Source: Glandiceps talaboti
Taxonomy: Eukaryota; Hemichordata; Enteropneusta; Spengelidae
Assembly: GCF_964340395.1 (NCBI RefSeq)
Contig: NC_135556.1
Location: forward strand, 10,121,001 to 10,185,000
Length of the DNA stretch: 64,000 nucleotides
Reading direction: 5' to 3'
Part shown: positions 18,766 through 59,847 of the stretch, piece after piece
Position numbering within the stretch: the first letter of the stretch is position 1
Layout of the letters: every line of letters starts with the position of its first letter
Notes under the pieces: model-generated
Databases searched by the model: none
Seen by the model: the letters and a program-made list of their open reading frames with translations, nothing else
Told to the model about the DNA's origin: nothing
Translations under genes and position numbers: made by a program

Positions 18766-28098
<9,333 letters not shown>

Positions 28099-29151: not shown

Positions 29152-32100
29152 ATGGAGGACAACCCATTTAAAGCTGTACTCCAAAAACATGACGATCGCA
29201 ATGGAAAGGTGAGCAAACTCTTGCAATCAACACACGACTTTGAGGAAGACATGCGGACGTTCATGACGAATGACGCGCCAATCAAACTAATCACAGAGGA
29301 TGAAGAAAACGAAATATGTAAGACTTTTGAACAGAAAATTTCGATTTGTGTTTTTGGTGAAAGGAACTGTGGCAAAAGTTCTTTGTTAAACGAAATGTTA
29401 GGGATCACTGCTGTACCGGTATCCGATACTCCTTGCACATGTAGAGTAATTCGTATTAAATACTCAAAGAACCCGTATTTATGTCTACGGGATGAAAATG
29501 GCACAGAAATTCCAGGATCGCGAAAACAACTGGAGGGCGCTGTAAAGAAGGAAGTGAAACAAGTAGCAGCGTTGAATAATGATGATGAAAGGATGAACAA
29601 ATCCATTGTCAGTGTGACTGTTGAAATCGGTTTAGATCATCCATCCTTGGAACATGGTGTCGAACTCATAGATTCACCAGGAAGAAATGAAAATAAAACG
29701 CTCGATGAGATTGTCGATAAGTTGGTACAAGAAAGTAAAAAGGCCATACTAATATACGTCATTGATGGTAAAAATGGTTTGCGTCCTGCGGTAAGTTTAA
29801 TACTATTATTTTTTTTTACTTGTAGTAAGATACAAAATAAAGTAAATTGTATAGAAAAATAATAAAAGGATACACAAATAATTGTATCTAGTGAACCATC
29901 CGAAATATCATGGCAGTTAGCCAAATCAGATGATCATGATTCAATCAATGATGTAATCGTGGGTGCAAACTCAGAAAGAGGCTGAGGTGCAAAGGAATTC
30001 AAAGAAAGACCATACGCCAAAACCCACCCATGATATGATATGTGGATATGTTATACCCAAAAATTGGCATAAACACTAGAGGAAATAAGTTTATTAAACA
30101 TTTAGATCAAAATGGATGGTTCAAGTTGGACCGGGTCCATGTCTCCTTACAATCCAGAAAAAAAATTATTAATGAAATTGTGGTTATCTAGTGGTATATA
30201 GTAAGGGTAGTTTTTGCTGAGTACCTTTTTTTCTCTGAAGACTTGTAGAATCACTGGCCAATTCATAGACCCCTTGCCACAAGTATGCAAGCCTACACAT
30301 TTATAGTATAATTCCTTACGACCAGGGCTTACGACCGTGTTCCGATTTTACATTACGTTATCTTCACACATCACGATAACGTACAAAATGGAAACACGTT
30401 CGTCAGGAACTAGACTACACATTACATGTAATGTGTGAAGATAATCACGTAGCGTAAAATCGGAACACGGTCGTCAGGAACTAGATTAACATATTTCGCA
30501 ATAGTATTACTATTAATAGTAGTAGTAGTAACATCAACTAATCTGGATTTGTTAGTGTAAGTCGATTGCAACTTGAAGTTGAGGTATCGCTAGCGGGTGT
30601 TTCAAAATCATTTACGACCTCGCATCTCAGACCACTAATAATGGTCTAGGGTGCAGGTCTGAGCTGGCACTAACTGTGTCGATCTGTTTAACCACATATC
30701 GCGACAAGTGTCCCGTGTATTGTCATTGCGACTCCAGAGATGTATTTGTTATAATGGTTGATCAACTTGAAGTTAAACCAAAATGTGGTATACCAGATGT
30801 TAGTTTCTATATTGTCAACAAAATTGTTTTCTGAAACTTCTGTTTACATGTATAACGAGTTCATAGTTATGGCGTACGTGGTCAACCGAGTGTCACAATA
30901 CGACCAGGAAGCGGAAATGCAATATAGGTACATTGATAAATACGATCAACAAATGATCATATAATTATATAAATACCTCTAACGGCATAACGTCATCGTT
31001 TCTATATCAACGGCCAATCAGGAACCCCTTCTTTAATATTCGATAGTACGGGAAATATTGCAAATATCTCGGAAGTGGTAAAAAGAGACAATTTCTGGAC
31101 CAGTCCCCGACAGTTCCCTTATCAGAGCAGGAAATAATAATGAACCCGATTTTCAAAGTTTTGGCCGATCCAGACAATTCTATTGTTAGCAAACTTGAAG
31201 ACGTAATGGCTCGATTTTCAAACTTTACAGTAATCTCGACTTTTAAGATGAAGGCGATGGTGTTAGTTATAACCGTCGCGCACAACGTTGTAAACCACAG
31301 GCCTCTGTAGGCACCGTCCGACACGTAATCTGTCCTTCAGTAGAAATATGTGCCCTGGCTTGCGAGAATGGAATATCGTTCCATTATCAGAAACGTGATA
31401 AACTATATTCCGGGTCGCCACCATGATCTTATATATATTAAACACATTGGACCAATGACATTTGCTTACGATCGTTAGAAACTCTTTAGGTTAGATTTTC
31501 AATGTTTCGCCCTGACGTACATATACAGCAAATTTAAGTTGCTGTGTGTTTTCAGTATAACAGCACCAATGCCTGTATAGGGTATTGTATATGAGTTATA
31601 ACATTGCTGACACAATTAGAATGGTATAATTTTATGGAGATGTGAATGCATGCATTTAATTTCTAAATACAGTCACATCAAAAAAATATGGTTTGCTGTT
31701 ATCTCAGACAATGTTTTAATCAAGCGTATCGGATCTGAATGTAGCACTCTAGTCAATCATTGAAGCACGATATAGTAACATTGTCTACCAACGGTATTTG
31801 TGCTCCACGGTATTAAAATAATACCCATTCGTGTGCCATGCCAGTGAAAGAAAACCCTGATTACTTGTTAAGTTTTCTGAATGTCAAGTTGTGACGGTGA
31901 CAGTATGTTATTTTTTCACTTTTATTACAGGATCGAGATACAATCCAAATGTTGAAAGATGCTGGTGCTCGAGACAAATTGTTCTATGTATGTAACAAAG
32001 TGGATAAAGATCTCCAGGCAGCAGCAATGGACATTCCATCAGATGAAGAACTACTTGAAAATGACCAAGGTCCAATGCAGTCAAAAGCTTCCGAAGTTCT

Positions 32101-34965
32101 ACAGGAACTTAGACGTTATGGGCTTTTCGAATCGTCGGATAAGTTCTATGGTCTCTCTTTCAAGAAAGTTAGACATGCACGGTTATCAGGCAATAGTGGA
32201 GGTCCTTTTGTAGAAGCTTTCAGAAAATTCAAGAATGACATCGTAAGACGTTTAGATGCCGACCTGAAAACTGCATCGCTGGGAGCTATAACCACCTTCT
32301 TGAAATGCCATGCCAGAGGCTTCCTGTGTTTCTTTCAGAAACAACAGCAGCTAGAACAAGACGAAGAAGAACTGAACAGAACATTAAAAGCCGCAAGACA
32401 ATCTGAGAGAAACCTTTTCACTGAACTGAAGACACTCGTAGAAGACAAAAAGCGGGACATACAAGACATCGTCACTACAGCTATCAAGGATGTGTCAGAG
32501 TCTTTGAAATCTTCAGCACACGGTATCAAAATAGAGAGAGTACGAGCTCATGATATCTACCTTCAACTTAACCTGTCAAATGGGCATTTGTGTAATGACG
32601 ATGAATTCTGCAAGTTCCACACCCTTTGTCGTGAAGTACGCAATCGTATAGTCAACAAGGTCTACAATCAAGTACAAACAGACGTGGAGACTCTACTCGA
32701 AGATGGTGTAGCTCCTGTGATGTGGCCTAAAATCATTGAGACGGTAGAAGCTTTGGATAACCCAATTTTAAAGAGAAGCATAGAATCCATCTACCAATTC
32801 GTGGGATACCAAACCGACTACAGGCAAGGTACTCGCACATCACTGACAAAGTTACTCTTTTCATTGGTCACTGCAGTCAAAGAAAACCTAAACAAACAGC
32901 TACTCCAGGTGTACGATTCGCATTCAATAATGAACATGGCAGTCGAGTCCTACAATAGAGTGACCAGACGTGGGGATGCTCCATATGCCGTTGTAGAAAA
33001 ATTAACTTCACGAATGGATGGAGGGAAACTTACCAATTGCATCCTCAGTGCCTGCAAAGAGAAGATGTATATGAACCACGAGTCGTTTGAAAGTTCAATC
33101 AAGCACATCGAATTCCTTAAAAGAGAAGTCCAGATCAATATCAGTGAAGAAGTCGGAGCAAACATAGCCAAGAGTATTTCGAAACTCGCTCTGTTAGAGA
33201 TCCAGAACCACGCCCTCAAATATGAGATACTGAGAGGAATGCTTGAGATGGGGAATAGAGTTGCTGAGGGACACCATAGTTGTACTTATGAATATAAACC
33301 TGGGTGGGGATTGAAAATCCCAGAACTGTGTGTTGTACGGGTTATCAGACGCCATGACGAAGCTGCCTGGAAGAGGATTGTGACTGCCCTGTACTATGCA
33401 TTGTAAGTATTGATATAGTCCAACTTCCTCAAAAGTAGATTTTTCAGATTTGGTCTTTTTCTCTTTTCAAAGGGACATTATTCAGATTTGCACATTTTTC
33501 TGAATACTATTTCATCTGAAAAATTACATACAATATATATATATTCTACTTCCTGAAACATGTTCAACTATCTACTAGTACTAGTAACTGTAAGATCGAT
33601 CGGTACAACCGCATTTTTGCAACATGAATACTTAAACGCTTCGATGATATCAATCTTAGGTCCAACCGAAAATAGCTATTGACAACAGGATTACATATAA
33701 CACAAACTGTCCGTTACGCTGCATATGCAGATTTTATACCCAATTATGGTACAAAGCAACAACGATACTATAAGTTTATGTGTACATTTACCCGTACAAC
33801 TGAAAGTCTGAAATTGTCCCATGCCTTTCCTTTATGTTTCTCGAAAACAAAAGTGTTTTATGATCGAATTGGCGTATACCTAAGAACGTGTTGTTGAAAT
33901 TTAACTTATATTTGAATAAGTTTGTTTGGTTATCTCACAATATCTTCGTCTTTTATATGGTAACTTTGTAGTAATTGCATGGTTTTCCTCAATTTTTTTC
34001 AGTAACTGTAAGAATAGTGAATACCTTCTTCGAATCTATGGATGGATGTTTCCCGACGCAGACACATTGAGCGTAGTCGTTGACCGGGTGGAAACCAGTT
34101 TGGAAGACGCCAAGTTATCACCAAGACAAAAGCTAGAGGTGGTTTTGGACGTTGTCAAGGGAATAGCTGCAATCCACTCCAGTGGTTTCATCTACAACAA
34201 TTTGGATGCCAGGAATGTACTGGTAAGTGTTTTGAACACGCTCAAACAAACAAAAACATTTGTATACCTTTGTCATTCTACGTCACGATAACTCGTGACT
34301 ACGTCATTGGTTCTGTTGCTACGTCATTGGTTCTGTGATGATCGAAATATGAGTCAAAACGTTCCACATATCGCCATTATTTACACGATTTTTCATAATC
34401 ATGCTTGAGGAGGTATATTCCAAAATATTGGTTTTCATTCACCGACAAATTGCACGTGACTTAAGGGTTTTAGCACTACTCGTCTGCGACTCAAAGCGAC
34501 ATGTCCCCTCAGGTCACTCACATTTTCCTTCGCTGAAAGGAGAAAACTCTTGGGGGATAATATGTAATCGTAACATTTCATTTTCGTATTAAACGATGCC
34601 ACAGAAGCGTTTCCTTATTTCTGAAGAATATACAACATTATGATATTTTCTCAAACGACCTTTAACTTTATTTTCAACAGATAACGCAAGATGGGAGTGT
34701 AAAGATCAATGTCTGCAAAGGCAAATACGAAATTCTTCGTGGGCAAGCAATCAATCTTGATATTCATCACATCGGCCAACTGTTGCTATGGTTACATGAT
34801 GGAGAAAGAAGTGGCAGTAGCATTTCAGCATCTGGTCGTTGGCGGAGACCTAGTGGATGCAGTAATGATAAACTCTGGAGGTTAATTGAGAGTTGTTTAG
34901 GTGCACATGCCAACGTCTCCTTAGACGGAATAATTCGAGATTTGAAAATCATTCTACATCAATAA
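29152..34965 (+). CDS. DSTYK-like: DSTYK-like gene B: GTPase with trimmed pseudokinase, 871 aa
   Basis: Exons 29,152-29,790, 31,931-33,402, 34,003-34,222 and 34,681-34,965 (phases 0, 2, 0), giving 871 aa. I chose the ATG at 29,152 because C and D also start MED; an in-frame ATG lies 12 bases upstream. GTPase motifs: GERNCGKS at 69-76, PCTCR at 94-98, DSPG at 174-177 and NKVD at 235-238. The middle is helical and Gln/Glu-rich (QKQQQLEQDEEELNR). The kinase is a pseudokinase. The VAIK position is Arg683 in CVVRVIRR, HRD is YNN (768-770), Lys of the catalytic loop is Asp, and exon 4 reads VKINVCKG where DFG should be. About 20 residues, including the APE region, are missing before DIHHIGQLLLWLHDG. 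All exons are open, so the product is likely made. It is a probable GTP-driven protein with a scaffold tail. Confidence 0.9.
29791..31930 (+). other. Intron 1 of gene B
   Basis: 2.1 kb between the GTPase exon and the G4 exon. It holds the hairpin element at 30,329-30,488. Short open frames near 30.76-31.45 kb have no recognisable product. Nothing else stands out. Confidence 0.8.
30329..30488. repeat. Hairpin element with nested inverted copies in gene B intron 1
   Basis: CTTACGACCGTGTTCCGATT and onward at 30,329-30,372 is inverted at 30,431-30,474 (ending AATCGGAACACGGTCGT). A partial third copy lies in the loop, and the phrase CGTCAGGAACTAGA occurs twice (about 30,401 and 30,472). It looks like a MITE with a nested duplication. 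Confidence 0.65.
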
Positions 34966-35082
34966 CTCAAAGAGTTTGATGACACACTATCGGGACTATC
35001 TTACATAGACAACGGACCAATTCGTTACATGTAGAGTGCGGTCGAACGTTTACATAGCAGATGAATTGCTATCAGTGAATTT

Positions 35083-35452
35083 ATGTCTATTTATTTCTAC
35101 AGCCCGTTTCATGTTTGTGTTCACTGAATCTGTTTGATTAAAACACACAGAAATCGATAAGAAACTACACATGCTAAACTTTAAGATAACAAGATTGAAC
35201 GAATACAGTTTCTTGCCACGTTTGTCTAAGGTAAATGAACAAAAATGACACCACATCAAAACATTGGCACCAGCTTGTCTAGTGTCTAGTTGCAGTACGG
35301 TTTATCTCATTTAGACAAAATGTATCAAGAAATTGCTACCTCGTTATCTGTAATTATAACATGTACAATGTACAGTTTCTTACTTGTTTCTGCACGGTTG
35401 TATCCAACTGAGCCAGTGAACACTAACATGAAACGGGTAGTAATAAATTTAC
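35083..35452. mobile_element. MITE with long inverted arms, family shared with gene D intron 2
   Basis: The left arm contains CCCGTTTCATGTTTGTGTTC and ACTG. The right arm ends CAGTGAACACTAACATGAAA and CGGGTAG. Interior words (CTACACATGCTAAACTTTAA, AAGATTGAACGAATACAG) resemble those of the element at 49,750-50,049 (CATATGCTACACTTTAAGAT), so the two are related copies. Confidence 0.6.
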
Positions 35453-35616
35453 TTCTTTGACCATGGTGTATTGTTACAGTGAAGACGAAAAAACGTGTAT
35501 CTTCCGATTCCATTGAAGAGAAGCCCCTGTATTACTGATAACGAGGCTCACTTGGCTTGCAAACTATCACTGTGTAAAGTTATAATTTGCATAATCGAAC
35601 AACCATTTTATTTAGA

Positions 35617-35777
35617 TATAATCCCACGAAATCAATGTTAGTTTTACGTCATAATTCTCTGAGTATGATTCCGTGGACTAATACAAATTCGAGTCGGAAG
35701 TGAGAATGATGTGTAGTCCACGGAATCATACGAGGAGCATTATGACGTAAAACTAACATTGATTTTGTAGCATTATA
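35617..35777. mobile_element. Hairpin MITE, about 160 bp, TATAAT ends
   Basis: The left arm TATAATCCCACGAAATCAAT then GTTAGTTTTACGTCATAAT is mirrored on the right (ATTATGACGTAAAACTAACA then TTGATTTTGTAGCATTATA). An inner pair (GTATGATTCCGTGGACTA and TAGTCCACGGAATCATAC) is perfect. A TA target is possible, since the ends sit in TATA-rich sequence. Confidence 0.7.
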
Positions 35778-37642
35778 TATTTATCACACAGTTAAGACAA
35801 TCCATATATTTTTTCTACAATTTTGAATCAAATTTTACGAATACTGCAACTAGACAAGCTACGGAGACACAACAATTCATCAATAAATTATTTGTTTTGT
35901 CGACACGTTCCATATATATCGCAATTTATATATGTACTCATATATCATTATATATACTAGTAAGTTGTACAGTAGATCGCCAGGTCTCATTTTTACACTA
36001 CGGCAAATACCAGACTAAAGGGCTCTAAGCTAACCAAGCTATCTCTAAGGAATTTTTAAAACGTTTATGACATGCATTTACTCTTTCCACCATTTACGAA
36101 AATAGAAGAAAAATATATAACTTTATAATCTCAGGGTCTCTTTGAAAACCGACCACTTTTATTTTTTATAGATTAAGAAAGTATTATTAATTTGAAGATA
36201 CAGTCCTTGTATTGAGCATAGGGGCGCGTCTTTCCTAAATTGTCGTTTTCCTTGTCTACATGCTAAATATAACAATGTTTTGACTTCTCATATATCCCCC
36301 CCCCCCCTCCTTTATGGAATTCGAAAGAACGCAGTAATCTCCTAGTATAGAGCGTATATTGATACATTTGCAGTATTGACATTTTTGGTTTTCTATCGTT
36401 TAAAATTTTTTTGGTGTAAAAATGTCAATCGTGCATGCACAAAACTCAAAAATGTAAAAATCATTAACTTCTGTCCATGGATGCAGGAGTGGGGGATATT
36501 TTCCGTAGGAAACAACAATCTAAGCAAAAGCACGTGTCCCCGTGTCCTTGAGCAGCACGGATTCATTTGTAAATGGACGAGAAGCGGCGTCTATCAACTA
36601 AAAAGGTCAGAGAAGGACACCATCCCAAAGACTGTTTTTTTTTGGTCTTGACTACACGGAACAATCAGCAAGAATCGATGCCATCCTACGCCCTATATTA
36701 GAAGTAACTGTTTTATAAATTAACTACTAATTACTGTGACTATAACATTATCACTTTTGTAATAAGAATAACAAATAATATAGAATGTATAATATCTGAG
36801 ACGTAACTTTTGCACTATTATTTGTTGTATATGTATTTTTTAAATTTCAATTTATCTGATTAGTCGTAACTAATCACTGTTACTATCAGTGTTATTTAAT
36901 TTATTTATTTTTTTTTTAAATTTGAGATTAATTTATAAGCATGTGCAATAAAATATTCATACGAAGGTATGATACAGTGGTATCCAAGTAACGAAATAAT
37001 GACCGATGGTGTGTCTTATTGTCTTTTTATAGTGGCGGAATTCCACATATTAGCCTTCTTGTCGTAAGTGTTGAGCATTTGGATATTTTTAGACACACAT
37101 TCGTCTCGTCAAAAGCGCTTTATAATTTAAGGGATTTATGCAGAAAATTAGTCTTTTCTGTTGTTTCATCAGATTAAAACATCCATTGTGTGTTCTGTGT
37201 TTAATTTATACTAAACCTTCAAATGCTAAATACCACTGATCAGAAATGTGGGTAGTTTGAGACACACGGACTTCTGGTCAAAATGCCGCTTTAGCATGTT
37301 GATGATACGATAGATTAGAACATATCGAAGGATGTATCAGTTTGAGTCAACTAATCAATCAAGGCGACATATATTTAAAGAAACTTTCGTGTGATGTTTG
37401 GAGACACACACTTCTGTCCACTCAGACTGACGCATCCTTTGATGTGTTCTATTTTAAATTAAATTGCTATAAATATCCCACATGCTAAGCACATTTGACC
37501 AGATGATTATATCATATGCATCAAATACTAAGCATTTATGATAATAAAGAGTTTATCACACACCTTCATAATCGAGAATACGAGGGCTAGGAGGTTAGAC
37601 CAGCTAACAATGTCAATACAAAATGTATCATAAATATATATA

Positions 37643-37722
37643 CAGTAGACCCTCGCTAACTCGCGGGTGTCCGGGTCCATCAAGAAACCCGCGACTTAGC
37701 GAGGGCCGCGACTTAGCGAGGT
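37643..37722 (+). mobile_element. Terminal fragment of a pogo/Tigger-like element
   Basis: CAGTAGACCCTCGCTAACTC then GCGGGTGTCCGG follows a TA dinucleotide and resembles Tc1/mariner-pogo ends, which typically start CAG and carry CCTCG-type words. CGACTTAGCGAGG occurs twice just inside, inverted to the start. No opposite end was found, so this is a solo end or a very short derivative. Confidence 0.5.
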
Positions 37723-37976
37723 GCTCATTATATATTCATAACCACACATTAACACATGTCACACGTAAGCTTTTCTTCATTCCTCAGTAATGTGCTGGTG
37801 AAACTAGTACTGTGTGTGTTTTTATGAGTGCAAGTTCATCGGCGATATTCATTTTTAAAAAAAAAGATATATATATTGAGGGTTCCAACCTGTCCGTACA
37901 ACCGCAGAGTTAGTTATCCCTAACCTAACTACCATACAACCTGGTTGAATTTGGCGATGTTCGGATTCCCATTCCC

Positions 37977-38204
37977 CTCATACATACATACATACATACA
38001 TACATACATACATACATACATACATACATACATACATACATACACACACATACATACATACATACATACATACATACATACACACACACATACACACACA
38101 CACATACATACACACACATATATATACAAATTTCCGAATTTATTTGGACAAATAAAGATTATTATATTATTATTATACATACATACATACATACATACAT
38201 ACAG

Positions 38205-38291
<87 letters not shown>

Positions 38292-38292
38292 T

Positions 38293-38325
<33 letters not shown>

Positions 38326-38327
38326 AT
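37977..38327. repeat. (CATA)n, (CA)n and (ACAG)n microsatellites upstream of gene C
   Basis: CATA/CACA runs at 37,977-38,130 and CATA then ACAG runs at 38,177-38,327, separated by a short unique AT-rich segment. They end about 325 bp before the gene C start codon. Confidence 0.97.
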
Positions 38328-38650
38328 GTTGTGGTAGAACCTTAAACGTAAACGTTTGGGGAGTTTCCAGTATTTGTTGTTCTATGGGAAAAACCCAATG
38401 AAACACTTGTTTACTGCTTTGCGAAGTCATGCAATCTATAAATCTCTTTTTAAGTCCTCAACCTAGATTAGTCATGGCGACCCAATGACTAGTGCACCAT
38501 AACTGGGCCGTGCAGTTTGGCTCAGGGCCAAAGCAATCACTCAGTGTTGACCGAACAATTCAGTTATTCCTAGCAGTGCGCCACCACTGAAACAGCCTTA
38601 CTCAATATTGTGATTGTTGTGATGAGAGGTCATCGTTTTATATATCCAAG

Positions 38651-41600
38651 ATGGAGGACGACTCACTCGCAAACACACTGAAAATCCACAGAGGTAGACT
38701 TGATAAGGTACATGGCATAGTAGCACAGACCAAGGACCTCGAGATAGAAATACGCCAGTCTTTAGGTGAGGACATCTCCACCCAGCTAATCACCAGCAAC
38801 GAGGAACAATCTATCAGACATGTGTTGGAACAGAAAGCAGTTATTGCAGTCATTGGCGAAAGAAACTCTGGTAAGAGTTCGTTAATCAACGAAATTCTAC
38901 ATCATAATGTTGTTCCTACATCTGAAATGACGTGTACTTCTCGAGTCGTTCGACTGAAGTACTCTACAGATCCATACTTGTGTTTACTGAATGTCGACGG
39001 GTCGGAAATACCAGGTTCACGAAAACCTCTGAAAGGCAGCAAAGAAGACGAATGTAAAGATAGGAAAAAGGTGAGATGCCTTGCAGCATTGAAGGGTGAT
39101 GATAGGGAGAATGAAGATCTTGTGAGCCAGTCAGTTGAAGTGGGACTGAATCATCCGTTGCTACAGTTGGGCATAGAGTTCGTAGATTCGCCTGGTAGGA
39201 ATGAAAACAAGACACTGGATGTGGTAGTCGATCGACTTGTCCTGGAGCGAACAGCCCCAATAATCATATACGTTATTGATGGGAATATGTGCCTTCGTCC
39301 ATCGGTAAGAATTGTTCTAGATATTATATGATTTAATAGTTCGCTATAGATATTGTGAATTAATAGCCAACAGACTTGTTGTGGTCTAACTATCACAGCT
39401 ACCATTGTAGATTTAGATAGCCAGTCCACAAGTGTCTGTTCAACTTCCAGTGGGATTTCGAAAGGTGGGTTATACTTCCATGGTATTAGGAAATGCATGC
39501 ATAGGCTGTATTAATATACCACTTACCCGGGACCACGTATCACCCTATCAGTCAGTGATTTAAGAAGCCCGATAGAGGCAAACAATATGACGTATCTTAC
39601 AGTGATTATGTAACACAATTCACGAAGTCAATTGTACATGTATTTACACTACATGTGTGCCAAGTCTGGCCACAACTGGATGACCCATCAGAGAAGAATA
39701 ACATTGTTCCAAAATGACCTTTACATTTGAATTTATACAATAGTATCTTACAGTGATTATGTAACACAATTCATGAAGTCATCGTGCATGTATTTACACT
39801 ACTTAACACATGTGCTAAGTCTGGCCACAAATGAATGACCCATCAGAGAAGAATAACATTGTTCAAAAATGACCTTTGCATTTGAATTTATACAACAGTG
39901 ACATATTCACATGGAATACAAATATTGAGTACAACACTAGACCTAGCAAAGAGCCCCATTTTATTTGCTTAGTGTTTAATCCAGTTGTACATGTATTCCC
40001 TCAGCACACATAAACTATCACGACTATCGTATCATATATTTACAAATATTGCAACTCTATAGAATGAATCTATAATAAGAACACATATAAAATGGTTTTA
40101 TCGGATAAATTGATCACTGCCATGCAAAATAAAATCGAACACTGACGAAATGAGGTGTTCAATATAGATGACATCGTACTCGCTGAAAACAAACACTAAA
40201 AGCAAGACCTGTTTGTATGAAGTTTCAACAACATATACTTTGACACAAATGAACACCACCATATACATCTACACCTGTTTTATGAATCATTATAACAGAA
40301 ACCTGCAATGTGGTCTCTGCATTCGTAAATTTGTTTTTTATACAACGTAATATGTGTCGAAATCTCTCAGTTCACACTTGTAAACAAACCATACAGTACT
40401 TCGTATTTTGGCGCCATAAACACCTCTTTAGGTTTAAGGTCATGACCTCTTTGGGGTCATGGCCTTATTCCTAGGTGAAGATGGTTGCCAGTCATCGAAA
40501 TTTTGGTAGTATCTGATAACATATTCTTGCAGTAGTGGTTAAGGAAGTTAAGTTTTCCTGAAAACTCTACACATGCTATGAAATTATTTGAACATATCGC
40601 ATTTTTGAATATATAATGTTCAGGGAAAATCTTGTAATGTTGGCATTGCTATTGTAACTTTGATCATAATGATGACAGATAATATTTTCTCAACATTTTT
40701 TTCTTTTCATGGTTTCATTGCACATCTGAAGGATCGTGCTAGTATCCAGTTTTTCAAGGAGCGATGTCCAGGGACGAAGTTGTTCTATATCTGTTCTAAA
40801 GTTGATAGAGACATGACAGCTTGGCAGTTGAATGATGATTCCGATGAGTCTGGTGAGGAGATTGAAGAACCCCCACCATCACCCAAGGATCTCAATAAGC
40901 AAGAACGGGTCCTTGATGAACTGCGCTTCCATTGTCTCTTAGACGAGCATACATCATTGGATAGATTTCATGGTATCTCTGTTAAAGGAATGAGAGCAGA
41001 ACGTAAAAAGGGAAACGTCGATAACACATTCGTTGAAGATTTCCAAAAGTTCAGAAAGAAGTTGGCTAGTTGCTTGGATGCCCATTTAAAGACAACCCTA
41101 TCAAGCACAATAGGGTCACTGATGAGATGTCATGGTAGATGCTTCTACTGCTTCTCCCAGAAACAAGAACAGCTGGAGCAAGAAGAAGAGGAACTAGCCA
41201 AGGTGCTGAAATCTGCTAGACAGTCAGAAGAAGAACTGTATGTGGAACTCTTAAGATCGGTCAACAGTAATAAGGGGAAAGTGCAGGCAATCGTCACAGC
41301 AGTTGTACATGATGTCACAGCAGATATTGGATACGAAGCAAGTCACTTGAAGGTGGAAAGGGTTGCTGCCTATGATCACCTACTGGAACATCAGGATGTT
41401 CAAACAAAGTACCCAACAGATTTACCAAGAGATGATCAATTTTACAGGCTCCATGCCCTGTGTAATGAAATACGTAACCACATCATTAACACAGTTTTTC
41501 GTCGAGTAGAGAGAGATGTAGAGACCCTTCTTGAAGAAGAAGTGGCACCTCTGATGTGGCCCAAAGTGATTGACACAATGGAAGCCTTGGACAATGAAAC

Positions 41601-43411
41601 ACTGAAACGAGACATTGAATCTATCTACCAATTTGTTGGCTTTGATACTGATTACAGAGAAGACACTCGCAAGTCTTTGACAGATTTGATGTATGCACTA
41701 GTCAGAGCAGTCAGGGAAGATCTGAATGATGAATTGCGAAGAACCTATGCAATACTACCAATGGTTGACATGGCGTACGGTTTATACTATCAAGGCAATC
41801 AACAAATCCCACCAATGGAAGATGTTGCTCAAACTGTGGTCGCCAGATTGCATTCTGATAGTCTTGCTGATGTCATCATCAATGCATGTACGAACAAGAT
41901 GTATGCAAACCACGAACAGTTCGACAAGTCAATCAAGCACATAGAGTTTTTCAAACAGGAAATGAGGATCAACGTGAAGGAGCAAGTTGGTGCAACAACA
42001 TCCATGATAATATCTAAACTGGCTCAACTTGAAATACAGAACCATGCTCTTAAGTTTGATATCATACGCGGTTCTCTGAGGAAAGGGGAAGAGCTGTTCC
42101 ATGGCAAGCACAGTCGGATATACCAGTATAGGACAGGGTGGGGACTGAGAAATCCTAAACTTTTCTTAGTATCTGTGGTAAAGAAGCGAGATGAAGAAAC
42201 TTGGAAGAGATCTATCGCCACCCTCTACTATGCTTTGTAAGTGTGCGTCTAAATTACCTAGTCTTCTAGTAAATTGCACAAATCAATAAATTTACTTGAG
42301 ATAAACAAATCATATAACCATGTCTGTAACAATTTACAATATATTAATAGTTGATTGTCTTGTATTGAAGATAGAAACATGCACGCGATTTAAAATAAAA
42401 AATATCTCAACTATTCCTTTCACATTTTGCAGCAATTGTAAACGGAGTCCTTACCTCCTTGGGATCCATGGCTGGTTACTCCCCACGCCAGACACACTAT
42501 ACATCATCATGGAGAAGGCAGCTACAAGTTTAAACAAGGTCAAGTTAGAAACAACGCAAGAAAAGTTAAAATGTGTTATAGACGTGGCTACAGGAATAGA
42601 TTGCATCCATTCAAGTGGATTCATTTTTAACAACTTGGAGGACAAAAACATATTGGTAAATATATAAGTAGATGAAATTGGTTATGTTGTGCACTGCTAT
42701 TTACATCCCTTCATTACCCTGTCCTTGTTCTTGCGACTTTCACATTTAGTTTCCTTGTTTTCAACCACTGAACAGCCTATGTAATCTTTTTATTCTTTCA
42801 ATATTATTTACTTTACCAGATTGTTTATTCCTTGTTTCCACTAACCACATTTCTTTGTTTTTGTGTTTTCTTTCTCTTACCTTCTGCATCTTTCTACTAA
42901 TATTTACTTTTTTGTATTCTTTGAACCCATAACTTACCCCCACCCCCACGCCCACCCCCACGCCCAACTGCAGATGGCATTATAAAATTATAATGCACAA
43001 GCAAATCTGAATATGCTACGATGGCGCAAATTTTTACATTCATTAAAAGACTTACTTAAACCTGACTCAGAAAGTAATGATATAATTTCTCTCCTTTCTC
43101 AGATTATGTCGGACAGAAGAGCTGTTATTAACACCTGCAAGGGCAGATATGAAGTTCTACGTGGACAGGCAGCCAATATTGATATTCGTCAAATTGGTAA
43201 ACTACTACTACGGTTATACGGGGGAAACACTTCAACAGCCGTTACAGCATCGGCACGTATGAACAGACCCAGTTCTTGTGGTGATGATAGAGTTTGGAGA
43301 CTGATACAGAGATGTTCGAATATACAAGTGCAAATAACTGTTAAAGCAATCATTTACGAACTGCAAACAATGTTGCAAAGCCTGGAAAGATCAAGAAGTA
43401 CAAAGGTGTAA
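38651..43411 (+). CDS. DSTYK-like: DSTYK-like gene C: GTPase with trimmed pseudokinase, 896 aa
   Basis: Exons 38,651-39,304, 40,732-42,236, 42,433-42,655 and 43,103-43,411 (phases 0, 2, 0), giving 896 aa. The start MEDDSLANTLKIHR sits in a good context (CCAAGATGG). GTPase motifs: GERNSGKS at 69-76, TCTSR at the switch I position, DSPG at 179-182 and SKVD at 240-243 (Ser replaces the usual Asn). An acidic, Pro-rich insert (DDSDESGEEIEEPPPSPK) follows G4, then a helical region with QKQEQLEQEEEELAK. The pseudokinase tail has Ser699 at the VAIK Lys position, FNN (785-787) for HRD, VINTCKG where DFG should be, and a shortened activation segment leading to IDIRQIGKLLLRLYGG. It is the closest relative of gene D. 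A possible poly(A) signal lies at 44,040. Confidence 0.9.
39305..40731 (+). other. Intron 1 of gene C
   Basis: 1.4 kb. It contains the tandem duplication at 39,592-39,898. A short frame around 40,168-40,350 is not recognisable as coding. Confidence 0.8.
39592..39898. repeat. Diverged tandem duplication, unit about 151-156 bp
   Basis: Units 39,592-39,742 and 39,743-39,898 share GTATCTTACAGTGATTATGT and CCCATCAGAGAAGAATAACA, with scattered substitutions and small indels. The second unit is slightly longer. Confidence 0.85.
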
Positions 43412-45376
43412 AACTCATGTGGCAGCCATAGCCCAAAGTAGATAAAAGAAAAACGATATTTGAACCTCATCAAAGGTCATCATTGCTGTGCACTGTAGTT
43501 GCGCATAGCGCAATCGATAAGTGTATTCTCCATGACAACTCCCTTATAGACCTATATTCCATAGGCTCTTTTAGTCTACGCTTGGAAACAAAGTCAATAT
43601 TTGAACGATTAAAAGAAATGTAATATTCAAATGAAAATGTATTTGTGTTGGTAAACCAACGTTTGTTCCAAACACAAACTTGAAATTGTACCTGACTGCA
43701 CACTTCAGACGGAATGCGATACAAACTTCCAGGCAGCCATATTAGGTTTACGTGTCCGTATGGTCACGTGTTCAGAATATTGGATCAATCTGTTGTCAAA
43801 CACCGAAGTGTGCAGTCGACAATTTCAGGTACGATTTTGGAACAAATTTAAATGTGTAGTTCGATATCAAAATATGGAATATAAAACAAACTTTCAATAT
43901 TTACAGTTCAAGCATAATCATGGTGTCATTATTCATATATTGTATACAGGGACTTTAATTTTTGAAGGAGGTTAAAAGGGAATCAAAAAAATTTACAGTT
44001 TTGCAGTATTCACATTTGGGTAGGTAGTTAGTATTGTCAAATAAAACATTCCTAAGCGACACAATGCAAGTCACAAAGCCATGGGTCATATACGTGTGAG
44101 GAATTGAAAATGAACAATTCTACCAAGTCATATCTTTTTTAACTTTGTCCTGATTTTATTGAGTGTTTTAAGGTTAGCCGTCTACTGAAAGACGATGTTA
44201 TTTGTAAAATCTCCGTTTCCAGTTATGGGTACGAGCATTTAGCGCAAACCGTTCCAAGAGCAGCGCCTCCTTCATACGTGTATGAAGTACGTATACGCTG
44301 GTTTGTACTAGCATTTTACCCCTTTCATATAAATTATTTACAAAGAAGCTCTTTACCCTGTGACCCGCGTAGTATCACGTCCGATTGGGCAAGCTGAGCA
44401 AACAAAATGGGAGAAAAAGTTTCTTGACACTGCGTTTGTCATATTTGTATTTGTTTATTGTATACACAGTTATTCCAATCAATCCTGTAGAACTGATTAT
44501 GTTAATTTCTCTCATTGGAGTTGGAAATAGTTCGGGTTTTATTTTTTTATGTCTGACACCGCAATGAAGCGTACACCCAGTGTCTCTGTGTACTAGTATG
44601 TCACCCCCTGCAAACTGCTCAGCACTTGAAGTAACGGGGACATTAAATGACAAGAACTTCCGAATTTTATCATCGATAATTTATCAAAAGTTAATGTCGT
44701 TCATGCCAGCCATACCAGAAGGATAGTACAAACTGGCCTTCCGTAATATTGATGGCACACTTTAATGCACTTGCTACCGAGGAGTGGGTGACACTAGTTT
44801 CTTCGAGCTCATCGTAAGCCAAATTATATAATCAGGCTAATCATGGATAAGCTAGAACAAGGAAGGAATTGTTATGTTTTTGTTCAAGTTTTGTATTAAA
44901 GTGAAATATTGAGAGGAATTTTTTAAAGAGTAATTATTTTGAAGAGGATACATCAAGGAGACAACAGATATGATCATAAAATTAGTTATCGTATAATGTT
45001 ATTATCATTATATGTAGAGTGTCAATCACTTTAAATCTTACAATTAAAACAAAGCGATGAGCCATTGAAATTCCAGATTTGTATAATCATACGTATTGTG
45101 TGATGAGATTATTTATCAGTTCTGTACTGTAAAACTGTTGGGCTAAACATTAATGTGACAGCCTGGTTGTAATTACCTAGTGACTTTGTGCATTATTGGA
45201 CCATCTATAAATGTGAGAAATATTAAAATTGCACAAATATGGACTTTTGTATTTTGAGTTGTGGGTTGATCCTGTGTGGTGCTATAATATTGGAATTGGA
45301 GAAAGACGTAAGGTTTCAGTTTATCAGACAATGTGACATATTTGTTGTTTTATTTTATCGTATCATTATAATGCTC

Positions 45377-45730
45377 TGGAGTCATGGTAGGCGAATGGTT
45401 AGAGTGAGCGAATGGTAAAAGTTGCCGACTTGGAATCTGCAGGTTGCAGATTCGAGCCCCATCGATGCCGTTTGTTTCTGAGTGGCTAAAGTCCTTGTGC
45501 AACCATGACTGTGCCTCAGTCAACTCAGCTGTGTAACTGGGGACGTGGTAGGATAGAGTTTGTAATGTGAATGCTTTATGCGCTTATAAAAAAAAAGGCT
45601 GCAATGGATTGTATGCTCCCCAGGTAGTTGAGGAAGAACAAATTACCCCTGATCCGAGTCAGGGGTAATAATTGTAAAGCGCTTTGAGCACAAAGTGGGA
45701 AAGCGCTATATATAAAAAAAACAACCAACA
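45377..45730 (+). mobile_element. tRNA-derived SINE
   Basis: The head carries an A-box-like TGGTTAGAGTGAGCG and a B-box-like GCAGATTCGAGCCCC at a tRNA-like spacing. The tail ends GTAAAGCGCTTTGAGCACAA then GCGCTATATA and an A-rich run, a LINE-derived 3' end common in SINEs. The region between is not coding. About 350 bp, apparently near full length. Confidence 0.8.
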
Positions 45731-46162
45731 TCATATCGCATAATTATGTAGCCTTTCCTCATATCTAGTCTTGGGCATGTTGTGAAATATAATACAAATT
45801 GATTTTAGATGCAATCATGTGGTGTAGTAATGCGGTGCAGTGTAGTGTAGTGTAATGTAATGTAATGAAGTGTAGCATAGCACAGTACAGTGTTATTGTA
45901 GTTTCCTTATTTATTGATTTACTCGAGTAGATTTTAACAATAGTTAAAAGTACACGGGGGTGCTACAATGACACATTGTAAAGAAATGAAAACAATTACG
46001 AGTGAGGTCAAATGTCTCCACAATCGGTAAGATCTCAAATACATAATACACAATCATGAAGAGATGAAACAAACCAGTGAAACAAAATACTAAAAAAATA
46101 AAGAAATAAGTTAGGTGTACCTACTATGTCTCTGTGAACTTTTTAAATTATTAGACAAGTAT

Positions 46163-46343
46163 AGTAGCAGCTAGTCTTGCTGCTAGACGTTCGGGCTTTC
46201 TTGATATACTATAAGCGAACGAAGTTCGCAATGAGGACTTGCCCGAACACTTGGATGTTCCATCCTCGATAGCGATGTTCGGTCGTGTGTCGTATTCTAT
46301 CGGAAGAACATCCGAGGTCTAGCAGATAGACTAAGTAGCAGCT
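46163..46343. mobile_element. Hairpin MITE, CTGCTAGAC family, copy 2
   Basis: The outer arms read GCAGCTAGTCTTGCTGCTAG on the left and GGTCTAGCAGATAGAC then AGTAGCAGC on the right, inverted. An inner palindrome GCGAACGAAGTTCGC is present. It shares TGCTAGAC-TTCGGG-TTTCTT ends with the copy at 17,698. It ends 120 bp upstream of the gene D start codon. Confidence 0.6.
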
Positions 46344-46463
46344 TGAGTCCAAAGAGCGTCGAATAATCAATAATTTATTTACTCGTTCTTGAACCAATGC
46401 CCCTACAACGCAGTCACGCTCTTTTGGCTGGTGCAATGAGTTCTCAATACAGGACAATCCAAG

Positions 46464-47308
46464 ATGGAGGACAAATGTCTAACAAATACGCTACATGTCC
46501 ACAGAGATAGACTAGAGCGGTTACATGAAATCGTAGAACGGACTAAAGGTCTCCAAGAAGACATACGTACGTCTCTGGGTGAAGGAATATCCACCCAGCT
46601 AATCACAGATCGCGAGGAACAATCGATCCGACAGGTGTTAGAACAGAGAACAGTTATTGCAGTTATTGGTGAACGTAACTCCGGTAAGAGTTCGTTCATA
46701 AACGAATTTCTCCGCCAAAAAGTCGTCCCAACTTCCGAAACACCGTGTACCTCAAGGGTTGTACGTTTGAAATACTCTGAAGATCCTTATTTGCGTTTAC
46801 TGAATGTCGACGGTACAGAAATACCAGGATCACGACAACCTCTGAAAGGCAGCAAAGAAAGCCAACTAAATTATAGACGAGAAGTGAGGCAGTTTGCGGC
46901 ATTAAAGGGTGATGATAGAGAGAATGAAGATCTTGTGAGCCAGTCAGTTGAAGTGGGACTGAATCATCCGTTGCTACAGCTGGGCATAGAGTTCGTAGAT
47001 TCGCCTGGTAGGAATGAAAACAAGACACTGGATGTGGTGGTCGACCGACTTGTCCTGGAGAAAACAGCGCCAATTGTCATATACATTATTGACGGGAAAT
47101 ATGGACTACGTCCTGCCGTAAGCATACATATTCTTTTTCAATTGATTTTTTAATGGTTATCATTCACGAAATTAAACTAGTGTTACTTAGTTCTATTGTT
47201 ATAGGGAAGCGCCTGTTTATGTATGTGACTTGCATCTGTTTGTTTGTTTGTTTGTTTGTTTGTTTGCTTGTTTGTTTGTGCGCGCGCGCGCGTGTGTGTG
47301 TGTGTGTA

Positions 47309-47363
<55 letters not shown>

Positions 47364-50300
47364 CTAGAATTCAAAATCGCTGGACCAATTGCCTTGGCAT
47401 TTGGTGGAGGATATTGTGAGGCTCCAGATCAAAAGATTCTTAAGACAAGATGACGTCTTTGTTGATATACATACAGGTAAAACATGGAGGGATCGCCGAA
47501 CGACTGTGCGTATCATATACATTTTATATTAGATAGATAAGAAACAGGCTTCCCACAGACCACTCAATGCAAATATAAACAACATCATCTGACCCCCACT
47601 GATACACATACACACACACATCGTCCTTGGAACAAACAAGCTATTGAAAATAATGGCATTGGCAAATAGAAAAATAATCTTCATGGTCTATGAATAAAGA
47701 TATATCCTATTCTAAATAACCACTGCAAGCACCATACTTAGGATGTGTCTTGCAAAGAAACGGATAAGGACCTCCAACCCCTACAAAATCTAAACCGTCC
47801 CCCTTTGATGAACTTTCCACCAACAATTTGGGATATTAATATATTGATAAATAGTACATAATGAAGATATCAGAGTTACTAAAGATTCATGGTACAATCT
47901 CACGTTCTCACTCTATCACATGAGTAAATTATCTATCAGTGGAGTTGTATTAAAGTATTAGATATGATCAGAACTTCTTCACGACTATTTTTTAGTTCTG
48001 TGAGGCATCTGTTTTCACATCTAAGTGACATTTTTGTTTGGTGTATTGTTTTACTAATTTGATTACTTTGTCATCCCCATATTTCTAATTACGTATTCGA
48101 TCATTTTTTTCCACTATTATTATGATACTAAAAGGACCGTGCTAATATCCAGTTCTTCAAAGAAAGGTGTCCTGGATCGAAGTTGTTTTATATCTGTAGT
48201 AAAATTGACAGGGACAGAAGAGCGAGCTACTACGATGAAAACTCTGATGAAAACTCTGATGACTCTGATGATGACGAGGCTCCGGAGCCAAGCATCACGA
48301 AGGAAGAAAGGGTATTAAAGGAACTGCACCGCTGGGGTTTTTTGGATACGAAATCAATGGAATCCGACATGTTTTATGGCATATCGGTCAAGGGAATGAG
48401 AACAGAACGAGAGAGGGGAAATGTTAATAATATCTACACAGACGTTTTTCAAAAGTTCACAAAGAAGCTGGCCCGCTGTTTGGATGCCCATTTAAAGACA
48501 ACCTTATCAAGCACAATAGGGTCACTGATGAGATGTCATGGTAAGTGCTTCTACTGCTTCTCCCAGAAACAAGAACAGCTGGAGCAAGAAGAAGAGGAAC
48601 TAGCCAAGGCACTGAGATCTGCTAGACAGTCAGAAGAAGAACTGTATCAGGAACTCTTGAGATCGGTCAACAGTAATAAGGGGAGAGTGCAGGCAATCGT
48701 CACAGCAGTTGTACAAGATGTCTCAACCAATATCGAATATGACGTACAACATTTGAAGTTGGAAAGGGTGGTACCGTATGATCACTTACTGCAACATCGG
48801 GATGTGCAGACAAAGTACCCGGATTTAGATTTGGATGAAGAATTTTACAAGCTCCATGCCCTGTGTAATGAGATACGTAATCACATCATTAACGCAGTTT
48901 TCCGTCGAGTTGAGAGAGATGTGGCGAATCTCCTAGAAGAACAAGTGGCACCGTCATGGTTCAAAGTGATTGACATAATGGAAGCTCTGGACAACGAAAC
49001 ACTGAAACGAAACATTGAATCTATCTATCAATTTGTTGGCTACGATTCAGATTACAAGAAAGACGCCCGCACTTCTTTGACGGACTTGATGTATGCACTA
49101 ATCAGAGCAGTCAGGGAAGATCTGACTGAACACCTACGAAGCATCTATGCCATATTACCTATGGTAGATGTTGCATATGAACTGTACTATGTCGGTGGAC
49201 GACACATCCCACCATTGAAAGAAGCTGCTCGAGTGCTGGTTGGTAGACTGCATTCCAATCAACTTGCAGATGTCATCATCAATGCATGTAACAATAAGAT
49301 GCACACATGCCACGAACAGTTCGACAATTCTATCAAGCACATAGAGTTTTTCAAACAGGAAATGAGGATCAATGTCAAGGAACAGATTGGTGCAACAACA
49401 TCCATGATAATATCTAAACTGGCTCAACTAGAAATCAGGAACCACGCTTTGAAGTATGAAATCATAAGAGGTACCATCATAAAGAAAGGACAAAAGCTGT
49501 TCCATGGTCAACATAGTGAGATCTACCAGTTGAAAATGGGATGGGGGATAAGACATCCAGAATCATGCGTCATACGTATTGAGAAGAAAGATGATGCAGG
49601 TACCTGGGGGACAGCCATAACGAACCTCTACTATGCCTAGTAAGTATCATGTATCGTTCTCAAGGCAATATTAACATTTCACTTTTTCTATATCTATAAT
49701 TATCATTAATTGTGAAGAAATGACTTACAGCGAATTTCAAAATATCGTTCAGTTTTTCTGTTTGATACAACCATGCAGAAACCAATCCGAAACTGCATAT
49801 GCTACACTTTAAGATAGCAAGATTGAATGAGTATAGTATCTTGCTACATTTTGTCTAAGTGAAATGAACTACACGTGCCAACATACAGACATCAAATGAA
49901 CACCCGAATATCTGCATGGAGTTGCAGTTCATTTATATGGTTTATTTCATTTTAGACTATATGTAGCAAAAATGCGATCTTGCTATTGAAGTGTGGCATA
50001 TGCAGTCTCGTGTTGGTTTCTGCGTGGTTGTATCAAACAGAAAAGCTGAGTCATTGTACATTCACTACGAATGTATCAAATATTACTGACATATCAAGAA
50101 CACGTTTACAACATATTTAAGATTAACTATCCTGTACTGTAACTGTAACATTTATTTCTCAAATATTTTCGCAGCAACTGTAAACAGAGTCCTCACCTTC
50201 TTCGGATCCATGGTTGGTTACTACCCAAGCCAGACACACTATACGTCGTCATGGAGAGGGCAGCTAAGAGTTTAGACAAGGACAAACTAGCAACAACACA

Positions 50301-51145
50301 ACAAAAGTTACAGTGTGTCATAGACGTGGCTAAAGGAATAGATTGCATCCATTCCTGTGGATTCATTTTCAACAATCTGGAGGACAAAAACATACTGGTA
50401 AATAATCTTCACTGACTTTCTATGACCGTGTTACACTGTACATTTTAATATGTTTTCCATTTTATCTTTTCTTTCTAGCGTTGTAAGTCTGTCTGTTTAT
50501 TCCACGTGCATATGTTTCTATCTTCGTGTTTCCCTGTTATGTCAGTCAGTCAGTCTGTCTGTTTGTCTGACTGTCTGTCTCTATCCGTCCGTCCATTCGT
50601 CCTTTCTTTCATTCACCCAATCATCCATCCATGCATCGGCATGTCTGTCATTCTGTCTGTCCGTCCATCTGAATTCCTTCCTTCCTTCCTTCCTGTTTTT
50701 TGTCCATTGTCATCATTTTCATTTGTTGTTTCGGATATTCGAATTCATTCACTGAAAACTCTACGAATTAAATTCTGTTTATAAATAGCAAAGTTGTTCA
50801 TCTGTCATATTCTGAGTATCACTGATAGAAGATTTGTATTTCCTATTAAAGATTATGTCAGACAACAGAGCTGTCATCAACACCTGTAAAGGCAGATATG
50901 AAGTTCTCCGTGGACAGGCAGCCAAAATTGATATTCGTCAAATTGGTGAACTATTGCTAAGGTTTTATGGAGGAAACATAGATAACACAACTACAGGATC
51001 TCTTCGTGTCAACAGGCCAAGTACTTGTGGTAACGATAGAGTATGGCGGCTAATCGAAAAATGTTTGAATCAATACCAACAAATCACTTTGAAAGCACTC
51101 ATACAAGAATTGCACTCGATATTGCAAACCCCTGTCATGACCTAG
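46464..51145 (+). CDS. DSTYK-like: DSTYK-like gene D: GTPase with trimmed pseudokinase, 891 aa
   Basis: Exons 46,464-47,117, 48,135-49,639, 50,175-50,397 and 50,852-51,145 (phases 0, 2, 0), giving 891 aa. The first three exons have exactly the lengths of gene C (654, 1505, 223 nt). Motifs: GERNSGKS at 69-76, PCTSR, DSPG at 179-182 and SKID at 240-243. A codon-repeat acidic insert (ENSDENSDDSDDDEAPE) follows G4, encoded by reiterated GAAAACTCTGATG units. The pseudokinase tail has Arg699 at the VAIK Lys position, FNN for HRD, VINTCKG for the DFG region and a shortened activation segment before IDIRQIGELLLRFYGG. The stop read at the end of exon 2 lies in the intron, because the donor (TA|GTAAGT) splits the codon. 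Parts are nearly identical to C. Confidence 0.9.
47118..48134 (+). other. Intron 1 of gene D, with microsatellite
   Basis: 1.0 kb. It has (TTTG)n, (CG)n and (GT)n runs at 47,237-47,363; the rest is AT-rich with nothing notable. The acceptor (CTAAAAG) has a modest pyrimidine tract about 20 bases upstream. Confidence 0.8.
49750..50049. mobile_element. MITE with about 110-bp inverted arms in gene D intron 2
   Basis: The left arm TCTGTTTGATACAACCATGC then AGAAACCAATCCGAAACTGC is mirrored on the right, which ends GGTTTCTGCGTGGTTGTATC then AAACAGAAAAGCTGA. It fills most of the 535-bp intron 2. A related copy lies at 35,083-35,452. Confidence 0.75.
50398..50851 (+). other. Intron 3 of gene D, with short tandem repeats
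   Basis: 454 bp. It contains (CAGT)n/(CTGT)n, CCGT and TTCC repeat tracts between about 50,540 and 50,700. No exon-like sequence. The open frames through it are repeat artefacts. Confidence 0.8.
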
Positions 51146-55539
<4,394 letters not shown>

Positions 55540-58500: not shown

Positions 58501-59847
58501 ATATCTTCCCTATCCTGAGAAAAAAAACACACAAAGAAAAGGTAGGTGAGGTAAACAAGAAAATTCAGGACAAACATGAACATGTGGTTCTCATAGTAAA
58601 CCCCGTGAAAATAGGCACGAGGGGGTGGTATTTATGATATGGGTTGTCAACAAATGTTTATATGTGCGTCATTTGTTTAAAAGTGTTCATTGGTTGTTTC
58701 ACGCCATTTTGACGTCCTAACGACAAGCTTAGAATAAACGGGATACCTAGGTAAACGTTGATACCATAAGGTTTTCATTTCAGAGCTACATGAACGGCTA
58801 CATAAATTAACTTTGATCGGAAAACAATACAATGTATATATTGGATATCAATTTTACTCACCCCTACCATTGACCCATCCACCTACCTATACTGCTAACT
58901 GGGTGATGCTATGGGTGCACGTGAAGAAAGCTATAGCTTTAAACAAAAAACTTTTAGCTGTGTTTGAGACAATCCAGTTTCCATGTATGCAGGTAGACAG
59001 GTAGATATGTAGGTTGGCAGGTAGATAGATAAGTAGGTAGGTAGGCAGGCAGGCAGGTAGATAGGTAGATAGGTAGGTAGGTAGGTAGGTAGGCACTGAG
59101 GTAGATAGGTATAGGTAGGTACCCATGTATCGTTTATTCATTTGTATTTAATTGGTGATGAGATGAGATGGATACCGTTTCACTAACCTGGTTTGTGAGT
59201 TGATTTTTGCCGTCCAGTACGTACACCACAAATGGTACGATCCTACTAAGTTCACCAAGAACCATTTTATCCAGTTCTTCGTTTTCCTGTAGCCCTGGCG
59301 AATCTACTAATTCGATGCCACTCTCAAGGAATTCATTCTTCACCTCTGCCAAGACATAGGTACCGATGGTTTCGGGATCTCTTCGCCCTTTTTTAAGTTC
59401 TATGAATTCTTCTGGTACTCTTCTTTTTATATCCCTCTGCTCTATAATTTTGTCGTCCTTCGATACAACATATGCCATCGGTTTCTCTCCATATCTTAAT
59501 TTTACCAGTCGAGCTGTGCAAGGTGTTTCTCTTGCTACTACATACGTGTGACCAAGTATCAAATTGATCAATGAACTCTTGCCCGAATTTGTCTGTCCAA
59601 CGAAAATCAAGCTGGGTCTCTGACCGACTCGATCGATATCTTGCTGTTCTTTTCGGTCTAAAAGTTTGAGTCCCCTTTCATTGATTGCTTTCATTAATCC
59701 AGGAGACAACCGACATCGTATATCATCATAGCATTGGACGGTTGCATCCTTGATTCGTAGTACGTTACGGGAGTCTTCCGTATACGACAAAAACGCTGCT
59801 TTCAGAACGTCCTCTTCCGAATCGCCACGTCGCTGTGATGTCGCCAT
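55540..59847 (-). CDS. DSTYK-like: DSTYK-like gene E: GTPase fused to an intact kinase, 899 aa
   Basis: Exons on the minus strand: 59,188-59,847, 57,115-58,514, 56,530-56,755 and 55,540-55,953 (phases 0, 2, 0), giving 899 aa. GTPase motifs: GQTNSGKS at 84-91, PCTAR at 109-113, DSPG at 182-185 and TKVD at 240-243, with an acidic run (DKDEDEDDDDGD) right after. A helical middle follows. The kinase has every key element: glycine loop GQGSQGDV from 643, Lys665 in CVVKVI, a likely alpha-C Glu682, HRDIKTEN at 753-760, DFG at 773-775 and MPPEV with Glu797. SIVGAPIAMPPEV and SIDVYAFGILLWF closely resemble human DSTYK (SIVGTPIHMAPEL, DVYAFGILFW), and the length is close to human (929). It should be an active kinase, by analogy able to phosphorylate Ser/Thr and Tyr. 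The start MATSQRRGD sits in an AAAATGG context. Confidence 0.92.
58515..59187 (-). other. Intron 1 of gene E, with (GGTA)n repeat
   Basis: 673 bp between the GTPase exon and the G4 exon. It includes a GGTA/AGGC/AGAT tetranucleotide tract at about 58,982-59,125. The acceptor TTTTTTCTCAG is strong. No further exon is visible. Confidence 0.85.

Follow-up and report, generated by a model that had tools for sequence, protein, structure and literature searches.

We analysed a stretch of 64,000 nucleotides from the acorn worm Glandiceps talaboti (contig NC_135556.1, positions 10,121,001 to 10,185,000; referred to as the window and numbered from its first base), in which a dynamin-kinase gene cluster comprises five genes (A to E) and one exon of a sixth copy (F). 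Three adjacent genes, B, C and D, encode a GTPase joined to a C-terminal kinase part that has lost its catalytic residues and two of its loops. The best overall explanation, which we consider somewhat favoured, is that B, C and D represent a branch of DSTYK-like proteins (DSTYK being also named RIPK5/SgK496; PMC9573974, accessible part), a branch seen here only in acorn worms. The dead kinase is very probably non-catalytic and maintained by selection, and its conversion to a trimmed pseudokinase was quite probably a single ancient event. That this tail serves as a regulatory or docking module in mixed oligomers is a tentative proposal.

Results

Gene models and motifs of B, C and D

The three genes run from the first base of the start codon of B (29152) to the end of the stop codon of D (51145), with the following splice models:

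29152..34965, + strand, gene B: exons 29152-29790, 31931-33402, 34003-34222 and 34681-34965; 871 residues
38651..43411, + strand, gene C: exons 38651-39304, 40732-42236, 42433-42655 and 43103-43411; 896 residues
46464..51145, + strand, gene D: exons 46464-47117, 48135-49639, 50175-50397 and 50852-51145; 891 residues

All introns are of the GT-AG type, no model contains an internal stop, and the NCBI models are largely identical: B lies fully within P0004 (whose start is four residues earlier), C matches P0002 exactly, and D, which shares 99% identity with an annotated G. talaboti protein, equals P0001 over residues 1-857. In the NCBI model of D, a GT donor within exon 4 is spliced (intron 51041-51793) to a last exon at 51794, an ending that swaps αH and αI for unrelated residues and is possibly an alternative splice form or an annotation error. 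In our alignments, tree and spacing counts it was replaced by the homology-supported exon-4 ending, which agrees with the other family members; the alignments behind the structure models and the PDB profile kept P0001 with the NCBI ending.

All four GTPase motifs were located in each protein: G1 as GERN[CS]GKS at residue 69, G2 as CT[CS]R at residue 95, G3 as DSPG at residue 174 (B) or 179 (C and D), and G4 as NKVD (B), SKVD (C) or SKID (D). In the kinase part, the position of the β3 (VAIK) Lys is occupied by Arg683 in B, Ser699 in C and Arg699 in D, the HRD position reads YNN in B and FNN in C and D, and the DFG position reads NVC in B and NTC in C and D. With the VAIK Lys, the HRD Asp and the DFG Asp all gone, the three proteins are pseudokinases by motif; they lack the intact motifs of an active DSTYK kinase, which neighbour E possesses (HRD, DFG and PPE present; Pkinase match 4e-39). 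Gene A has YAD at HRD and NMS at DFG, and is therefore also a pseudokinase by motif, with an activation segment of full length. The initial annotation of this DNA had described the retained GxxxxGKS, DSPG and G4 motifs, the same losses of the VAIK Lys, HRD and DFG, and exons open and in phase, and on all of these points our models agree with it.

Two trimmed loops

In 12/12 trimmed proteins the DFG position and the helix-F Asp lie 17 residues apart, compared with 35-37 in six untrimmed relatives (36 in E and 35 in A, the others being Pfl_16, Tub_17, Lio_18 and Act_15b; Act_15a was omitted). In the window the shortened segments, placed from exon starts and residue numbers, lie within exon 4:

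34708..34761, + strand: trimmed activation segment of B, from NVC to the helix-F Asp
43130..43183, + strand: trimmed activation segment of C, from NTC to the helix-F Asp
50879..50932, + strand: trimmed activation segment of D, from NTC to the helix-F Asp

The initial annotation had proposed that about 20 residues were lost together with APE. The length stands, but the Glu of APE is probably retained, since the sequence aligned at this position is YE[IV]LRG in B, C and D and the aligned Glu occurs in 11/12 family members; a normal αEF helix is not seen in the predicted models despite this Glu. Although the trim is present in the three adjacent copies in which it was noticed, it is not peculiar to them, being an older clade feature of at least 12 proteins. 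Common to 12 proteins from three genera, it is therefore not due to chance.

A second region is also shortened: from the helix-F Asp to a conserved αH Cys there are 43-46 residues in the trimmed family versus 57-60 in the untrimmed proteins, so that the αF-αH region is trimmed as well, where αG should sit. αG is a usual docking helix of kinases, and the docking role at which the initial annotation had hinted finds no direct support here.

Around the site of the first trim (the scar), residues 761-835 in C numbering (75 positions) hold zero gaps across the 12 proteins and form the sole gap-free segment out of eight; the GTPase segment of the same alignment has 12 gapped columns out of 210. Residues N804, C806, G808, L813, D821 and I822 are invariant. 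The HRD Asp position is Asn in 10/12 and Asp in 2/12, and the β3 Lys position is Arg in 10/12, Cys in one and Ser in one.

Both flanks of the gap sit in one uninterrupted open exon 4. When the activation segments of the untrimmed proteins A, E, Pfl_16, Act_15b, Tub_17 and Lio_18 were compared by tblastn with 28500-53000 (E <= 10), no match fell below E = 0.11, the recognisable ones being known exon-4 remnants, whereas in a control on the whole window these six queries recovered the A, E and F segments at E <= 2e-5. An annotation error is therefore unlikely. None of the 12 gene models from three genera contains a restoring exon; the quality of the 12 database models was judged by comparison with B, C and D only.

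Distribution and phylogeny

The trimmed proteins comprise five from Glandiceps, five from Ptychodera flava (Ptychoderidae) and two from Saccoglossus kowalevskii (Harrimaniidae); some form close pairs, namely C with D and one Saccoglossus tail with the other, and they are therefore not 12 independent cases. No trimmed relative outside hemichordates appeared among the matches, the searches requiring shared short exact words; in two of the searches scoring was limited to the 7991 and 7995 best candidates, and absence beyond hemichordates is thus not shown. From one search we took 16 of the 18 matches into the tree and counts and excluded P0019 and P0020, which have 7% and 16% coverage and lack a listed kinase domain; P0007 (a 507-residue piece) and P0008 (bacterial), from a different search, were excluded too. 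Mean pairwise identity in the family of 12 is 0.531 for the GTPase, 0.449 for the kinase tail and 0.370 for the stalk between them.

In a tree of 19 rows the 12 trimmed proteins form a clade with support of 100/100, whose stem is long at 1.01 changes per column; A branches next outward (91/88), followed by unit two of a protein from a sea anemone (97/95). The DFG Asp is already Asn in A (N-M-S) and in the anemone unit (N-L-A), both untrimmed, and the DFG change therefore probably preceded the trim, as far as the sequences indicate. A divergence date for the three acorn-worm families was not found in the literature examined.

The anemone protein, P0015 from Actinostola sp. (1638 residues), resembles two joined dynamin-kinase units with degraded kinase motifs in both, and is either a real fusion or a chained gene model; we divided it at residue 878 before building the tree, and the spacing counts include only its second half. 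P0018, from the chiton Liolophura sinensis, displays the opposite loss: HRD and DLG are present, whereas its GTPase P-loop is degraded and Dynamin_N is not among its listed domains.

Selection and possible gene conversion

The ratio of nonsynonymous to synonymous substitution rates (dN/dS) was estimated with a pairwise codon model (own script) in six overlapping regions for each of the three pairs. Taken separately for GTPase and tail, as had been suggested initially, the C-D ratio is 0.222 in the GTPase (p against 1 = 1e-14) and 0.305 in the tail (p = 5e-9), which is not near 1; it is 0.355 in the stalk (p = 2e-10), 0.391 in the N-lobe part of the tail (p = 0.0055) and 0.098 in the scar region, residues 780-835 (p = 2e-6). 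C-D dN itself is 0.218 in the tail versus 0.151 in the GTPase. No region of any pair exceeded a ratio of 1, the comparison being made by region and pair, with no site-level tests. For B-C and B-D, p-values were <= 0.0002 with the sole exception of the B-D scar region. In simulations of unconstrained sequence, stop-free runs numbered 1/1000 at 0.35 substitutions per site and 0 at 0.5 and 0.7.

Between C (40732-42236) and D (48135-49639), stretches identical at fourfold sites alternate with diverged ones: 18/18 such sites are identical over residues 337-392 and 0/5 over residues 225-280, with 13/17 in the scar window 785-840. These near-identical patches form the pattern that gene conversion would leave.

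Predicted structure

As the initial annotation had anticipated in calling for a structure prediction, the tail is predicted by AlphaFold to adopt a compact protein-kinase fold. Mitofusins are the best structural matches of the predicted models, MxB occurs among the Foldseek matches at rank 15, and both the models and a sequence profile indicate a GTPase with a helical bundle of the bacterial dynamin-like protein (BDLP) type. We hold with good confidence that the scaffold of B, C and D is mitofusin/BDLP-like. The protein would comprise a GTPase domain joined to a long stalk of helices, the last of which returns straight into the C-terminal kinase fold. Membership of the mitofusins proper is not claimed. 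Hydropathy, the one measure applied, gave no sign of a mitofusin-style transmembrane anchor: the highest 19-residue mean among the three proteins, 1.55, falls within the GTPase.

Other genes in the window

The remaining members of the cluster are as follows:

18766..28098, - strand, gene A: exons 28098-27481, 21876-20267, 19696-19468 and 19170-18766; 953 residues, GTPase and full-length pseudokinase
55540..59847, - strand, gene E: exons 59847-59188, 58514-57115, 56755-56530 and 55953-55540; 899 residues, GTPase and intact-motif kinase
about 63173..63580, - strand, last exon of copy F: 5' end approximate, from a blastn match; the remainder of the gene lies outside the window

Genes A to E share a four-exon layout with intron phases, deduced from exon lengths, of 0, 2 and 0 in all. 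The last exon of F keeps DFG and PPE intact and its DNA is 97% identical to exon 4 of E across 381 bases; judged by this identity, F may be a recent duplicate or a converted copy. The cluster adjoins a long open reading frame that encodes a C2H2 zinc finger (11458-13059, + strand) and displayed no likeness to the cluster in a self-comparison.

Discussion

Alternative explanations

Several other readings of these data were considered. Relaxed decay, in which an unneeded kinase part erodes while the GTPase is kept, draws on the loss of the catalytic motifs, on a tail less conserved than the GTPase and on the higher C-D dN of the tail; it is nonetheless very improbable, as the tail is better conserved than the stalk, the C-D tail is under clear constraint, the scar has the same length in 12/12 proteins and the 75 positions around it are free of the gaps found in the GTPase. 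Strictly neutral decay was rejected on the C-D ratios, the stop simulation, the fixed scar length and the gap-free segment, and the initial opinion that the loss was tolerated or selected, not the decay of dead genes, gains support from the C-D tail ratio, the fixed-length scar in three genera and the compact predicted fold. A missed exon or alternative splicing that restores the activation segment, which the initial annotation had allowed for, is less probable still and scarcely credible. The differing NCBI last exon of D does suggest that exon-4 splicing may vary; that exon, however, lies after the gap, and we rejected this explanation on the open exon 4 that holds both flanks, the tblastn search with its control, and the 12 gene models.

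Two further alternatives concern function. The proteins could be immune GTPases specific to this lineage and comparable to Mx, GBP or IRG proteins, with the trimmed kinase as a decoy or effector-facing surface; the tandem cluster of this one window, the several trimmed paralogs found per genus, the conversion-like patches of C and D and the MxB match would all suit such a role. We consider it unlikely in view of the absence of any regional dN/dS above 1, the length-invariant rather than variable scar region, and the mitofusins ranking as best structural matches. More doubtful is a tail that still binds nucleotide as a switch without phosphotransfer. The JAK JH2 pseudokinase likewise combines a short activation loop with Asn for the catalytic Asp, and Arg replaces the β3 Lys in 10/12 trimmed proteins; however, according to the accessible part of PMC4718504, JH2 keeps that Lys paired with an Asp at the DFG position, both of which are gone here, only one Gly of the glycine-loop motif aligns, and the αC Glu of E is aligned with Thr in C.

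A number of observations weigh against a selected, trimmed DSTYK-like branch on a mitofusin-like scaffold. The placement of A as sister falls below the mark for strong support and the root was set by midpoint only, and two trimmed members keep a catalytic-loop Asp (YND in Gta_12, P0012; YRD in Pfl_10, P0010), the Asp/Asn pattern requiring, by eye, at least two changes on the tree. Coding DNA was compared for B, C and D only; dS exceeds 1 in 11/12 region fits of B-C and B-D and is saturated, so that these ratios carry little weight, the B-D scar region gives 0.46 (p = 0.053), and the conversion-like patches make dS uneven between C and D. As to structure, no transmembrane-like stretch stood out by hydropathy, the AlphaFold alignments held only 6 and 12 rows, the model of C is less sure in parts of the GTPase and has a predicted local distance difference test score (pLDDT) of 72 over scar block 811-820, and AlphaFold may lean towards the familiar kinase fold.

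Proposed mechanism and significance

The catalytic residues and two loops were lost long ago, yet the tail has been preserved unusually precisely, and this points to a role other than catalysis. Under the reading that we prefer, the conversion to a trimmed pseudokinase would have occurred once, ahead of the separation of the three acorn-worm families. Its starting point would have been a full-length pseudokinase resembling A, with the DFG Asp already changed to Asn. The protein would work through its GTP cycle, assembling on or between membranes for tethering or remodelling, while the dead kinase, joined to the returning stalk helix, would act as a non-catalytic structural, regulatory or protein-contact module, and E (perhaps also F) may contribute the kinase activity when assembled together with B, C and D. 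A membrane role is inferred by analogy, in that overexpression of DSTYK promotes late endosome/lysosome fusion (PMC6981171) and both mitofusins and paired bacterial dynamin-like proteins form hetero-oligomers (PMC6162298, PMC6104087), as stated in the accessible parts of these papers. A broader and speculative idea, which we rate as improbable though not remotely so, is that DSTYK-like proteins are animal membrane-fusion GTPases of the mitofusin/BDLP type with a built-in kinase, and that acorn-worm dead-kinase subunits co-assemble with kinase-competent copies and tune fusion.

One cluster thus offers a natural series on a single GTPase scaffold, namely the intact-motif kinase E, the full-length pseudokinase A and the trimmed B, C and D, which allows a direct test of how a kinase fold is used after loss of catalysis and of the activation segment. 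A mitofusin/BDLP-like scaffold would also give a physical basis for the DSTYK role in late endosome/lysosome fusion reported in PMC6981171 (accessible part), a link that we did not find in the literature among the matches listed.

Comparison with known systems

All 12 trimmed proteins are named DSTYK-like by NCBI or UniRef, B, C and D being homologous to these and sharing the layout of E, Ptychodera P0016 and Tubulanus P0017 (Dynamin_N followed by a kinase with HRD and DFG or DLG). What sets them apart, in a comparison made with invertebrate DSTYK-like proteins, is that αG, the catalytic motifs of the kinase and the greater part of its activation segment are missing. With mitofusins and BDLP they share G1 to G4 and the predicted helical bundle, but they showed no conspicuous transmembrane-like segment and carry a kinase fold after the returning helix.

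Among pseudokinases, JAK JH2 binds ATP. It resembles the trimmed tail in its kinase fold, its abnormally short activation loop and its Asn for the catalytic Asp (PMC4718504, accessible part). JH2 keeps a nucleotide-contacting Lys, whereas B, C and D are without this Lys and the DFG Asp and have αG trimmed. In EphB6, too, canonical VAIK, DFG and HRD are missing and the activation loop is short and degraded (PMC7586955, accessible part). EphB6 is, however, a receptor tyrosine pseudokinase without a GTPase, the loops being likened by description only. RIO kinases, like others whose activation loop is incomplete, also miss the usual activation and substrate-binding segments. RIO kinases are catalytic; B, C and D have lost their catalytic motifs, and their nearest untrimmed relatives keep the full segment. 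An account of such a double trim was not found among the matches listed, most subscription journals lying outside the search. Short-activation-loop pseudokinases (JAK JH2, EphB6) and the Dynamin_N plus kinase annotation of DSTYK-like proteins were already known; what is new, as far as we found, is that a whole clade bears a double trim of fixed length on a mitofusin-like GTPase.
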